Source: Asaia bogorensis (GTDB taxonomy: Bacteria; Pseudomonadota; Alphaproteobacteria; Acetobacterales; Acetobacteraceae). From it: 14,023 bases of DNA. The notes under the pieces are model-generated. The model saw only the letters and a list, made by a program, of their open reading frames with translations. It was not told the DNA's origin and ran no database searches. The translations under genes were made by a program, and so were the position numbers. Numbering within the stretch: the stretch's first letter is position 1; each line of letters starts with the position of its first letter. Shown here in pieces: positions 7,885-14,023 of the stretch. The stretch covers positions 1 through 14,023 of the forward strand of contig CAMCHA010000014.1 of NCBI GenBank assembly GCA_945874515.1. The letters are read 5' to 3'.

Positions 7885-8847
7885 ATGACCACAAGACGCG
7901 CTGCCCTTGCCGGGCTTTTTGCCTTTCCTGCCCTGGCTTCGGCTCAGGAAGCCTGGCCGGCGCGTAGCCTGCGGCTGATTTCGCCTTTTCCGCCAGGTGG
8001 GGCTGCCGATGTTCTGGCGCGCAATATCGCCGAAGAATTGACGCCAGCGCTAAGGCAATCAGTGGTGGTGGAAAACCGCACCGGCGCGGGTGGCTCCGTC
8101 GGTACGGAAGCGGTGGTGCGCAGTGCGCCCGATGGCTATACGCTGCTGATGGGGTCAACAGGCCCGCTTGCGATCAACCCGGCGTTACTGCGCCTGGCTT
8201 ATGATCCCGCGCGGGATCTGGTGCCAATTGGGATGGTCTCCACCGTCGCTTCCGTTCTTGTGGTGCATCCATCCGTGCCCGCCCGCAATTTGATCGAATT
8301 GCTGGCCTTGGCACGCGCCAAGCCGGGCGAATTGAATTACGGATCAAGCGGCACGGGCAGCGCGCAGCATTTGTTCATGGAATTGCTGAAGCAAATGACC
8401 GGGGTGGACATCACCCATATCCCCTATCGCGGAACGGGTCCGGCCGTGGTGGATACAATCGGCGGCCGGCTTTCCATGATGTTCGACACCACGCCTACTG
8501 CGCTGCCGCATATCCAGGGCGGGCGCGTGCGCGCCATTGCCGTGACCACCGCGCGGCGCGACCCTGCCTTGCCGGATGTACCAACAATCGCTGAATCTGG
8601 TGTGGCTGGCTATGCAGGGGTTGGCTTTTACGGGCTCATGGCGCCTTCAGGCACGCCAACCGCGATTGTGGATCGGTTGCATCGGGAAGTGAATGCGGCG
8701 CTGGCCCGCGAAGCCTTCCGCGCGCGCCTGGTGGCGCAGGGAACTGAACCCGCCCCTATGACTCAGGAAGCCTTTCGCAATTTCATCGCAACCGATCGCG
8801 AAAGATGGGCGCGCGTGATCCGCGATGGCAATATCAAGGTGGATTGA
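7885..8847 (+). CDS. Bug-family (TctC) tripartite tricarboxylate transporter substrate-binding protein
   Basis: Periplasmic solute-binding protein of 320 residues, the normal length for the family. The N-terminus (MTTRRAALAG, then a hydrophobic stretch to ALASAQ) is a signal peptide with twin Arg, cleaved near residue 20. Family blocks follow: SLRLISPFPPGGAADVLARN, VVENRTGAGGSVGTEAVV, DGYTLLMGSTGPLAINPALL, LNYGSSGTGSAQHLFMELL, ITHIPYRGTGPAVVDTIGGR and GLMAPSGTPTAIVDRL. Bug proteins bind carboxylates or small aromatic and amino acids. No TctA/TctB membrane genes are nearby, which is common because orphan Bug genes are abundant in some lineages. An AAGGA-type ribosome-binding site precedes ATG 7885. 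The ligand is unknown. The neighbouring oxidoreductase and ring-cleavage dioxygenase make an aromatic acid conceivable. Confidence 0.93.
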   Translation: MTTRRAALAGLFAFPALASAQEAWPARSLRLISPFPPGGAADVLARNIAEELTPALRQSVVVENRTGAGGSVGTEAVVRSAPDGYTLLMGSTGPLAINPALLRLAYDPARDLVPIGMVSTVASVLVVHPSVPARNLIELLALARAKPGELNYGSSGTGSAQHLFMELLKQMTGVDITHIPYRGTGPAVVDTIGGRLSMMFDTTPTALPHIQGGRVRAIAVTTARRDPALPDVPTIAESGVAGYAGVGFYGLMAPSGTPTAIVDRLHREVNAALAREAFRARLVAQGTEPAPMTQEAFRNFIATDRERWARVIRDGNIKVD

Positions 8848-8942: not shown

Positions 8943-9806
8943 TCAATCATGCCGCTTCAGTGCAAAATCATAGACAAGCTTGCGCCAGCTGGAATTCATG
9001 ACCTTGCCATCGGGATCCGTTCCGGGGGGATGTTGCGTGAATTCGGCGATTAATTCCTGCTTCACGCCAAAGACCGCATCACTATCCAAATAGGGATCGC
9101 CGGCGACAAAAACATGCGTCACCAGGGTTTCATGCCCAGGTGCGGCAATCATGAAATGGATGTGCGCCGGGCGCATCGGGTGCCGGCCGGTGGCGCGCAG
9201 CAATTCCCCCACCGGCCCATCATCTGGCACGGGGTAGGAGGTGGGTGTCAGGGTCCAGAAATGGAAACGCCCTTCGCTATCGGTGCAAAAACGCGCGCGT
9301 AGATTGGCATCCGGCTGATCAGGGCGCTGCACATCGTAATACCCATCCTCATCCGAATGCCAGATATCCACGATAGCGCCAGCAATGGGGCTTCCGCCTG
9401 CGGTTGAAACACGGCCGGAGACATGCAGCGCTTCGCCCTTCATGGCGCGCGCAACCTCTGCCCCCAGTGGCAATTCCGGCGCGCCTTCAACATAAAACGG
9501 GCCGAGCACCGAGGTGGGCGTGGCGCCTGCCGGCAGCCGGTGATTGATCGCATCCACCAGCATTGAAACGCCAAGCGTATCTGACAGCAGGATGAATTCC
9601 TGGCGCTTGCCATCGCACATATGGCCGATGCGTGTCAGGAAGCTGATCGCAGTCTGCTATTCCTCGAAACTTGGTTCAACATCGCGGACGAAGGCATGCA
9701 GATGCCTCACAAGGCTTTGCGCGACGTGGCGCAGCCGAGGATCCTCTGCGCCCGCCAACCGTTGCAGAACGGCATCGGTGATGGAGTTTTCATCAAAGTA
9801 GCGCAT
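8943..9806 (-). pseudogene. Hydroxyquinol/catechol 1,2-dioxygenase (intradiol) with in-frame amber stop at codon 50
   Basis: Non-heme Fe(III) intradiol dioxygenase that opens hydroxyquinol- or catechol-type rings between the hydroxyls. From ATG 9806 (AGGAA 8 nt upstream) the frame reads MRYFDENSITDAVLQRL...FVRDVEPSFEE, then TAG at 9659-9657, then QTAISFLTRIGHMCDGKRQEF without a frame change to the stop at 8943; 287 codons in all, normal length. The N-terminal dimerisation helices and catalytic barrel are present. All four iron ligands are visible: Tyr157 (DGYYDVQ), Tyr191 (TSYPVPDDGP), His215 and His217 (PAHIHF), with spacing as in the family. EFILLSDTLG and the overall pattern favour hydroxyquinol as substrate. 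The amber codon apparently replaces a Trp (TGG to TAG). An internal ATG at 9620 could give a 225-residue protein lacking the N-terminal domain, but it has no ribosome-binding site. The gene lies 53 bp after ftsY on the same strand. Confidence 0.85.
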
Positions 9807-9859
9807 CGGAAGTTTTCCTTATCATTCCCTGTTCGATCAGGCGGGCCGCAAAAAATCGA

Positions 9860-10957
9860 CTAATCCAGCCCCATCAGCCCACGCGCAAAATCCCGCGCCG
9901 CGAAGGGGCGCAAATCCTCGGCCTTTTCGCCAACGCCCACCACATGCACAGGCAGGTCGAATTCCTGTGCCAAAGCCACCACCACGCCGCCCTTGGCCGA
10001 GCCATCCAGCTTGGTCACCGCAAGCCCGGTGACATCCACCATTTCCTTGAAAACCTTCACCTGCTGCACGGCGTTTTGCCCCGTGGTCGCATCCAACACC
10101 AGCAGCACGGAATGCGGCGCTGTTTCATCCACCCGCTTGATGACGCGGATGATTTTGCGGAGTTCTTCCATCAGCGCAGTTTTATTGTGCAACCGGCCAG
10201 CCGTATCCACCAACAGCAAATCTAGCCCATCGGCGCGCGCTGCGGTCAGCGCATCAAAAGCCAGCCCCGCCGCATCGGCACCAGGCTTGGCGGGCGCGAA
10301 AAACCGTGCGGAGGTCCGCCCCGCCCAGACCTGCAATTGTTCCACCGCCGCGGCGCGGAAAGTATCGCCCGCGACAAAGCCGATTTTCAGCCCCTGTTCC
10401 GCATAATGCCGGCCAAGCTTGGCGATAGTGGTGGTTTTGCCCGTGCCATTCACGCCCACCACCAGCACCACATGCGGCGCGCGGGCAGGGATGATTTCCA
10501 TGGGTCGCGCCACGGGTTCCAGAATGGCGGCGATTTCATCTGCCAGCGCGGTCTTCACTTCCTCATCGGTTACTTCCTTGCCGAAGCGCGTGCGGCGGAA
10601 GCCTTCCACAATCCGGCGCGAAGCCGCGACACCCAGATCAGCCGTGATCAGGGTTTCTTCCAACTCCTCCAGCGCCTCATCATCCAGCCGCCGCTTGTGC
10701 AGCAGGGAAACAACGCTGTCCGTGAGCTTGGCGGTGGAGCGTGAAAGACCCGCCTTCAGCCGCGCGAACCAGCCGGTTTTGGCGGGTGCCTCTGCCTCAG
10801 GCTGCGGGATGTCAGCCGGTGCTGCCTCCGGGAGTGGGGGAGGGGTTTCCGCAATCCGAGCCGGCGGCGCTTCAGGCGGTCCGGGAATCGGTATTTCAGG
10901 CGCTGGCTGCGGCGCACCGCCGCCGCGTAAACGGCCGAAGAAATCACGCAACGCCAT
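9860..10957 (-). CDS. ftsY: Signal recognition particle receptor FtsY
   Basis: SRP-receptor GTPase that docks ribosome-SRP complexes at the inner membrane for co-translational insertion; 365 residues. The N-terminus ([13 protein letters not shown]) is followed by a Pro/Ala-rich segment (about 15-60) in place of a long acidic A domain, then the N domain (WFARLKAGLSRSTAKL, about 63 onward) and the G domain. GTPase motifs: GVNGTGKTTTIAKLG (168-182), DTFRAAAVEQL (198-208), DTAGR (251-255) and TKLDGSAKGG (315-324), with the C-terminal GVGEKAEDLRPF typical of FtsY. The open frame extends upstream within mtaB, but ATG 10957 fits the family, and its A is shared with the TGA of mtaB (TGATG), implying translational coupling. 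It is the last housekeeping gene of the dapF-mtaB-ftsY operon. Confidence 0.96.
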   Translation of the reverse strand: MALRDFFGRLRGGGAPQPAPEIPIPGPPEAPPARIAETPPPLPEAAPADIPQPEAEAPAKTGWFARLKAGLSRSTAKLTDSVVSLLHKRRLDDEALEELEETLITADLGVAASRRIVEGFRRTRFGKEVTDEEVKTALADEIAAILEPVARPMEIIPARAPHVVLVVGVNGTGKTTTIAKLGRHYAEQGLKIGFVAGDTFRAAAVEQLQVWAGRTSARFFAPAKPGADAAGLAFDALTAARADGLDLLLVDTAGRLHNKTALMEELRKIIRVIKRVDETAPHSVLLVLDATTGQNAVQQVKVFKEMVDVTGLAVTKLDGSAKGGVVVALAQEFDLPVHVVGVGEKAEDLRPFAARDFARGLMGLD

Positions 10958-12213
10958 CAGGCGGCCTCCGCCAAAAGCCCATCCGCATCGGCGCCGGTCA
11001 CGCGCAGGCGGCGGATTTCGCCCGGCTGCCCCGCACTGCCCAGCAAGCGCAGCGGCGCAAAATATTCCGTATGGCCGCGATCGGGATGTTCCAACAAAAC
11101 ATGCTCCTCCTGCCCCAGCCGCGCCGCGAAATAGCGCGCCGCCGCCGCCGCCCCGGCTTCGCGCAGCCGCGCCGCCCGCGCGCGACGTTCCGGCACCGGG
11201 ATTTGCGGCATGCGCGCTGCCGGCGTGCCTGGGCGTTCCGAATAGGGGAAGACATGCAGGAAAGAGAGATCGCAATCCCTTACGAGATCAAGACTTTCCT
11301 GAAATTGGGCTTCGGTTTCAGTCGGGAAACCTGCAATCAGATCAGCACCAAAGACGATATCGGGGCGCAGCCGCCGCGCCTTTTCGGCCAGCGCTATGGC
11401 ATCGGCGCGCAAATGCCGCCGCTTCATGCGCTTCAGGATCAAATCCGACCCATGCTGCAAGGAAAGATGCAAATGCGGCATCAGGCGGGGTTCTTCCGCA
11501 ATCAGCCGCCACAGGTCTTCATCCACTTCCACGGGATCGAGCGAGGAAAGCCTAAGCCGCGGCAATTCTGGCACCAGCGCCAGCACGCGACGGATCATTT
11601 GCCCAAGTGTCGGGCTACCCGGCAGGTCAGGCCCGTAGGAGGTGACATCCACCCCGGTCAGCACCGCTTCCCGATACCCAGCCGCCACCAGGGCACGAAG
11701 CTGTTCAACAATGGCGCCCATCGGGACAGACCGAGATGGCCCACGCCCGAAGGGAATGACGCAAAAGGTGCAGCGATGATCGCAACCCTGCTGAACTTGC
11801 ACGAAAGCGCGCGCACGCCCGGCGAATTCCGTCACCAAATGGGCGGAGGTTTCGCGCGCGGCCATAATGTCACTGACTGGCGCGGGCGGTGCATCCAAAG
11901 CGGCCCAGGTTTCGGGCTTCAGCTTCTCGGCATTGCCGATCACACGTTCCACGCCCGGAAGCCCGGCCCATTTATCGGGCGCGATTTGCGCCGCGCAGCC
12001 GGTCACGATGATGCGCGCACCGGGATTGTCACGATGCGCCCTCCTGATCGCCTGGCGCGCCTGGCGTTCAGCTTCCGCCGTGACCGCGCAGGTATTAACG
12101 ATGATGGCATTACCCTGGCCGGCCTTGCTGGCCAGGTCGCGCATTGCCTCACTCTCATAGGTATTGAGCCGACAGCCGAAACTCAGCAGCCGAGGGGCTT
12201 CCGCGCTGCTCAT
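10957..12213 (-). CDS. mtaB: tRNA t6A37 methylthiotransferase MtaB
   Basis: Radical-SAM enzyme that converts N6-threonylcarbamoyladenosine at position 37 of ANN-decoding tRNAs to its 2-methylthio form (ms2t6A); 418 residues, normal for the family. The N-terminal MTTase domain has the three cluster cysteines Cys14 (SFGCRLN), Cys42 (VNTCAVT) and Cys73 (VTGCAAQ). The radical-SAM CxxxCxxC is at 144-151 ([10 protein letters not shown]). Later blocks include [27 protein letters not shown] and [10 protein letters not shown]. The C-terminal TRAM-like region is short. LSFGCRLN at the start points to MtaB rather than MiaB or RimO. The start overlaps the dapF stop by 4 bp (ATGA) and the stop shares one base with the ftsY start, so the three genes form a tight operon. 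Confidence 0.95.
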
Positions 12214-13149: not shown

Positions 13150-13200
13150 TCGGCCGCCGCGCGCGGAACCGGAACCCGCTTCCGGCCCGCCACCCATTAT

Positions 13201-13821
13201 TTACCCGTTCAGCAGCCGGTCAATCTCATCCTGCTCCAGATCGGGGCCGGCCATCTTCGGGTCTGCCACGGTCTGCACCACGCCCTTCAGCTCCACCTTG
13301 GGGCGGGAAGCATTGGGGCCAGGCTGGGCGCTTTCGGGCAGAATATCCTCCAGAATAGATTCGACCTGCTGCAAGTCGCGAATGGCGCGGCGGATGCGCT
13401 GGCCGGTCAAATCCTGGAAGGAACAAGCCTCAAAAATGGCATTCACCCTTTCAGTGATGGCCGGCAGGGCATCTGGGCTGCCAGAGCCCTTCTCAAGCCA
13501 TTCCTGAATGGCCTCGGCGGCTTCCAAAATGGTATTGGCGGCTGCTTCCGTCGCCTGGACCACCGCCTCAAGCTCCTGGCCGGAGGTGCGGTTGCCCGGC
13601 TGAGGCGCGGAAATCATGCCGGCGATTCTTTCATGAACGGAGGATATCTGGCTGGCCAGGTTTTCCTCGCTCATGCCCAGAAGCTGCACGCTGGCGGATA
13701 CCTCGGCGCTGACTTCAGAGATGCGGCGGTCCATAAAGGCGCGCAAATCGCCGAAAAGGGGCTCCATAGCGGCCCTGAGCACTTCCGGGTCCGGCACTGT
13801 ATCCGCTTGCGAATGCGACAT
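13201..13821 (-). CDS. CheZ-like protein phosphatase (chemotaxis response-regulator phosphatase)
   Basis: Predicted cytoplasmic all-helical phosphatase of 206 residues, similar in length to CheZ (~214), which speeds dephosphorylation of CheY-P. The diagnostic motif is SFQDLTGQRIRR (134-145). Its Asp137 and Gln141 match the catalytic Asp-x-x-x-Gln of CheZ (D143/Q147 in E. coli). The flanking sequence is long amphipathic helix (about 15-110 and 125-165), fitting the four-helix-bundle dimer. After a Pro-rich linker, the protein ends in an acidic tail (DLEQDEIDRLLNG) that resembles the C-terminal CheY-binding peptide of CheZ. ATG 13821 has AGGA 9 nt upstream; longer frames to 14010 do not look protein-like. 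No other chemotaxis or flagellar gene is in the window. The CheY partner is inference. Confidence 0.8.
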   Translation of the reverse strand: MSHSQADTVPDPEVLRAAMEPLFGDLRAFMDRRISEVSAEVSASVQLLGMSEENLASQISSVHERIAGMISAPQPGNRTSGQELEAVVQATEAAANTILEAAEAIQEWLEKGSGSPDALPAITERVNAIFEACSFQDLTGQRIRRAIRDLQQVESILEDILPESAQPGPNASRPKVELKGVVQTVADPKMAGPDLEQDEIDRLLNG

Positions 13822-13921
13822 GAGACTTCGTCCTGAATCCAAGGGGCGGCCAAACCGCCGGGTGATCACGGGGGCATTAAACACCCATAAAGGTGAAATC
13901 TCCGTTTCTCTGGGGCGGGTC

Positions 13922-13950
13922 TTGTGTGGAAAACTTTGCGGCGCTATAGC
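13922..13950 (+). promoter_or_regulatory. Possible rightward promoter at the right edge
   Basis: TTGTGT (13922-13927) and TATAGC (13945-13950) are spaced 17 nt apart and point away from the CheZ-like gene. The predicted start site is about 18 nt before the ATG at 13974. TATAGC is part of a small palindrome, GCTATAGC, so the match could be incidental. Confidence 0.35.
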
Positions 13951-13973
13951 CCCGCCTCCCGCGCCGTGGCCCC

Positions 13974-14023
13974 ATGGACATGCCCGGCCGGAACCCCCTT
14001 CCCACCGCATGGTGCGGCCCCGG
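13974..14023 (+). CDS. Possible 5' end of a divergent gene cut by the window edge
   Basis: ATG 13974 opens a frame MDMPGRNPLPTAWCGP that stays open to the end of the window, 16 codons. A second ATG follows at 13980. No Shine-Dalgarno is visible, but a promoter-like pair lies just upstream. I do not recognise the protein from so few residues. Confidence 0.3.
   Translation, partial: MDMPGRNPLPTAWCGP

Follow-up and report, generated by a model that had tools for sequence, protein, structure and literature searches.

A lone in-frame amber codon in a hydroxyquinol-type dioxygenase gene from the draft genome of a Roseomonas-like bacterium

The solved proteins closest to the dioxygenase described here are 6-chlorohydroxyquinol 1,2-dioxygenase (8r2x), PnpC (3n9t) and hydroxyquinol 1,2-dioxygenase (1tmx), which have the same domains and iron ligands in common with our frame, and from which it differs in being cut by a TAG at codon 50. 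With regard to such interruptions, Cooley and Wright (2024, PMC11017572) report that errors of assembly account for many of the internal stops found in public assemblies, their occurrence depending on platform, coverage and assembler. The frame in question lies in a 14,023 nt stretch of DNA (the window), which is one entire contig (C14) of a draft genome comprising 404 contigs and 2.59 Mb. This draft is 78.8 % complete, leaving ∼21 % of the genome absent from it.

Reading down the minus strand between 9806 and 8943, we found an ATG-initiated piece of 49 codons (9660..9806), a TAG (9659..9657), a second piece of 237 codons (8943..9656) and a TGA, which together form a frame of 287 codons plus terminator (8943..9806). 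The first-pass annotation had described this as an otherwise open dioxygenase frame with a TAG at codon 50, and both Pfam domains and same-frame homology on the two sides bear this out. Dioxygenase_N spans the stop, with model positions 1–28 matched before it (E-value 5.7e-07) and 31–75 after it (E-value 1.6e-16), such that the TAG breaks the frame within this domain; the match of the second piece to Dioxygenase_C is near-complete, covering model positions 3–181 of 182 (E-value 1.3e-46). As the nearest relative is 97 % identical across 287 residues, in the same frame before and after the TAG, the location of this codon inside a dioxygenase is not a matter of chance. Also as first annotated, a likely ribosome-binding site for the full-length frame, AAGGA, is present at 9816..9820 on the minus strand, 9 bases upstream of the ATG. 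Furthermore, the frame retains one or other of Tyr156/157, together with Tyr191, His215 and His217, which we take to be the four iron ligands of the hydroxyquinol-type intradiol dioxygenase family, and which had likewise been reported as kept.

Searching solved structures with the 237-residue piece returned 8r2x, 3n9t and 1tmx as best matches, with E-values of 1e-70 to 1e-79, whilst the best catechol enzyme match was far weaker (E-value 1.2e-39) and the piece matched catechol NCBIfam models with scores below their cut-offs. Judged by these matches, the dioxygenase is nearer to hydroxyquinol than to catechol enzymes. No hydroxyquinol-pathway neighbours of the gene were recognised within the window, and a loose look for maleylacetate reductase in the same genome gave three Fe-ADH matches with no clear partner amongst them, the best of which adjoins a dehydrogenase-like gene.

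Directly upstream of the dioxygenase on the minus strand is an ftsY frame (9860..11275; its start as drawn is not necessarily the true start), and the run reads dapF–mtaB–ftsY–dioxygenase, with names assigned by NCBIfam. A gene for a TctC-family solute-binding protein (7885..8847, plus strand) is convergent with the dioxygenase, which is thus the last gene in its run. Across 19 named loci, the same four genes are collinear in 8, whilst DNA-level matches in the remaining 11 were confined to the dioxygenase. Most of the nearest named relatives are draft genomes labelled 'Roseomonas sp.', and the closest named match of the query piece is a bin, Loclat_bin-08675, at 97 % identity, which is presumably the relative G008 referred to below, given the agreement in contig number and position. 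We considered whether the contig might be chimeric and saw no sign of this, identity to the nearest relative being 90–94 % in five genes and 96 % at the far end (13152–14023). As a separate observation, the genome contains 99 TctC-family solute-binding matches in its 2.59 Mb, a number that presumably is high for a genome of this size.

Alignment to close relatives, which had been proposed as a check, showed no stop at codon 50 in any related copy. Thirty loci were fetched, and after setting aside the window itself and one locus in which the codon was not covered (L017), codon 50 specified Trp in 28 of 28, with no stop. Trp was also present at this position in all 123 covering proteins from a set of 125 homologues, the other two being gapped there. 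In a wider set of 80 named loci, where the position was taken by offset, 77 reached codon 50, and these comprised 67 with TGG, 10 distant relatives with Phe and none with a stop; the first-pass statement that Trp is common here therefore holds, although the motif it gave, EEW-x2-I-x-FLT, reads EEW-x3-I-x-FLT in relatives. The thirty loci came from a search of 59 genomes, using a query that begins after the TAG, which gave matches in 39 (38 of 58 without the genome under study), with no stop inside the dioxygenase amongst the matches listed. Amongst all copies compared, the TAG is private to this assembly. The idea that the N-terminal part might be a separate gene in relatives was rejected, as 15 relatives in the set used for tree building (16 sequences out of the 30 loci, leaving out partial and more distant ones) have a single open frame from the ATG, with TGG at codon 50 in every case. 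In terms of distribution, 16 of 34 genus-mates have a dioxygenase match at ≥ 69 % identity. One relative, G026, has a partial copy at a contig end (L088:1-624, G026:C208) with a 1-base deletion and frameshift; more partial copies lie on its other contigs, perhaps reflecting mixed strains. From the occurrence in 16 of 34 genus-mates and the frameshifted copy, the gene looks dispensable.

Our preferred explanation, which we consider probable, is that this dioxygenase gene lost its function recently within one lineage of an uncultured Roseomonas-like bacterium, leaving a null allele or a pseudogene of very young age. The conserved Trp codon 50 would have been converted to TAG by the change of one base; translation would then stop after 49 residues, and although the rest of the frame is open, no full-length enzyme would contain it. 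With the gene last in its run behind ftsY, its loss should leave the neighbours unaffected. This reading presumes that the population really carries the TAG and that its product has no activity. Of the origins first proposed for the TAG, the relatives point to recent nonsense mutation of a Trp codon or to a base miscalled there, whilst tRNA suppression is unsupported, as set out below.

To gain insight into the age of the lesion, we counted substitutions along the branch leading to this copy, obtaining 25 synonymous and 8 non-synonymous ones (the TAG included). Against a background of the rest of the ingroup with internal branches (551 synonymous, 174 non-synonymous) the ratio is not significantly raised (P 1.0); against the other ingroup terminal branches alone (266 and 49) it is higher, but not significantly so (P 0.22). 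At most about 10–14 % of the branch can have been unconstrained when internal branches are included in the background, or 15–20 % with terminal branches only. These counts fit purifying selection along most of the branch, so that the TAG is either recent or a wrong base. Three of the seven missense changes (D3Y, T99S and R174C) fall at sites conserved at ≥ 88 % and introduce a residue unseen in homologues, as against 2 of 47 changes along the remaining terminal branches (Fisher 0.012), in a test that was picked after the changes had been seen and with a cut that barely admits D3Y; at a 90 % cut the figures are 2 of 7 and 2 of 47 (P 0.08). This post hoc and threshold-dependent excess leans weakly towards decay, and miscalled bases would inflate it as well.

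The second explanation to be weighed is that the TAG is a wrong consensus base, arising from a low-coverage call or a strain mixture, and that the living gene is intact. The draft is fragmented and incomplete, a second lone TAG occurs in an otherwise preserved gene (on contig C7, see below), and many internal stops of public assemblies are errors according to PMC11017572. In disagreement with this, the TAG sits mid-contig, and the ftsY, mtaB and dapF frames of this genome are open up to terminators shared with relatives, with 3, 1 and 5 private non-synonymous changes, respectively, against 12 synonymous changes in each; the dioxygenase itself has 7 against 13, which is not significantly more (P 0.22). 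A single wrong base is nevertheless compatible with all of these observations, and we regard this explanation as possible and next in likelihood to a null allele.

Alternatively, translation might restart at codon 63 (9618..9620, minus strand), where the first ATG downstream of the TAG lies, and yield an enzyme of 225 residues that contains the catalytic domain. Such a short frame would retain the Dioxygenase_C match, chains of solved intradiol dioxygenases go down to 155 residues (4ilt), and one database protein of 225 residues (P0046), 97 % identical, starts at the same Met. This protein, however, derives from a 3.5 kb contig and may owe its start to the gene caller, to the contig end or to some other lesion. 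Moreover, no purine-rich ribosome site was seen ahead of this ATG, and a restart would forfeit residues 1–62, and with them part of Dioxygenase_N; all 15 relatives in the tree set keep these residues. We consider a restart improbable.

To place the TAG in the context of the whole genome, we examined stop codon usage, tRNAs and other interrupted genes. Amongst 354 stop-to-stop frames of ≥ 250 codons, largely non-overlapping and not all necessarily genes, found in 556 330 bases (the window plus 40 contigs), 215 end in TGA, 72 in TAA and 67 in TAG; the ftsY of this genome terminates in TAG, as does that of 8 of 8 relatives. The amber suppressor tRNA that the first-pass annotation suggested looking for did not emerge: 27 tRNA genes were found in this 78.8 % complete genome, the anticodon CTA is absent from all of them, and tRNA-Trp has CCA. 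The search for other in-frame TAGs, also suggested, was answered in part: 193 matches to four Pfam families comprised 191 without an internal stop, one with a TGA and one with a TAG. The latter is in a peptide-binding SBP_bac_5 gene on contig C7 (L161:3488-3490) that is intact in the nearest relative, G008; the 358 residues downstream of the TAG are identical to those of G008, two missense differences lie upstream (R to C and R to H), and the position of the stop is occupied by Glu in three relatives. The TGA is found in a TctC-family match at C209:1166-1420. A racemase-like gene on contig C12 (L166:5100-6000), whose Asp_Glu_race match falls under Pfam's cut-off, has one inserted base, a TGA and a deletion of 31 bases relative to G008, and is thus a real pseudogene with multiple lesions. 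A codon-score scan for internal stops did not discriminate, because antisense frames score well; a six-frame version gave 32 sites, sorted by reading, most of which resembled the ends of genes close to a start codon, and two of which were examined further. As this version failed to pick up the TAG of the window itself, its sensitivity is limited and it yields no genome-wide rate.

These data bear on a further explanation, that the TAG is read through by a suppressor tRNA or under a changed code and a full-length enzyme is made. There are indeed two otherwise preserved genes with an in-frame TAG, and a tRNA could lie unseen in the missing part of the genome. Conversely, TAG is a regular terminator, the tRNA genes found include none with CTA, a single TAG amongst 193 domain matches is few, and the two TAGs replace different residues, Trp and Glu. 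As the internal stops are of mixed types and at different residues, recoding does not fit, and we rejected a genome-wide version of it; read-through of any kind at this codon is very improbable. The narrowest form, in which an amber suppressor tRNA that acts at a low level or is confined to this lineage, and is encoded in the unassembled fifth, yields full-length proteins from a few TAG-bearing genes, appears exceedingly so. As for the null allele, the existence of other interrupted genes in the genome counts in its favour, whilst the C7 gene, being preserved downstream of its TAG, also resembles scattered miscalls and counts against it.

The stop by itself matters little. If real, it would mean that a ring-cleavage enzyme has been lost in one lineage of a genus where about half of the members searched have a close copy. 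More generally, the locus illustrates cleanly the way in which an isolated in-frame stop should be read when it occurs in a draft genome, with relatives, stop usage elsewhere, tRNAs and reads being consulted before recoding is invoked. With stop-codon reassignment and amber suppression it shares an in-frame TAG in a conserved gene, and it differs from them in that no suppressor tRNA was found, TAG is a regular terminator and the internal stops are mixed. The single-nonsense bacterial pseudogenes, true or spurious, of PMC11017572 likewise have one internal stop in a gene that is otherwise open, with near relatives that lack it, and compared with those there is nothing distinctive in the dioxygenase of the window. 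Most likely, then, its stop is an ordinary one, better explained by a null allele of recent origin or an error in the assembly than by an unusual reading of the code.
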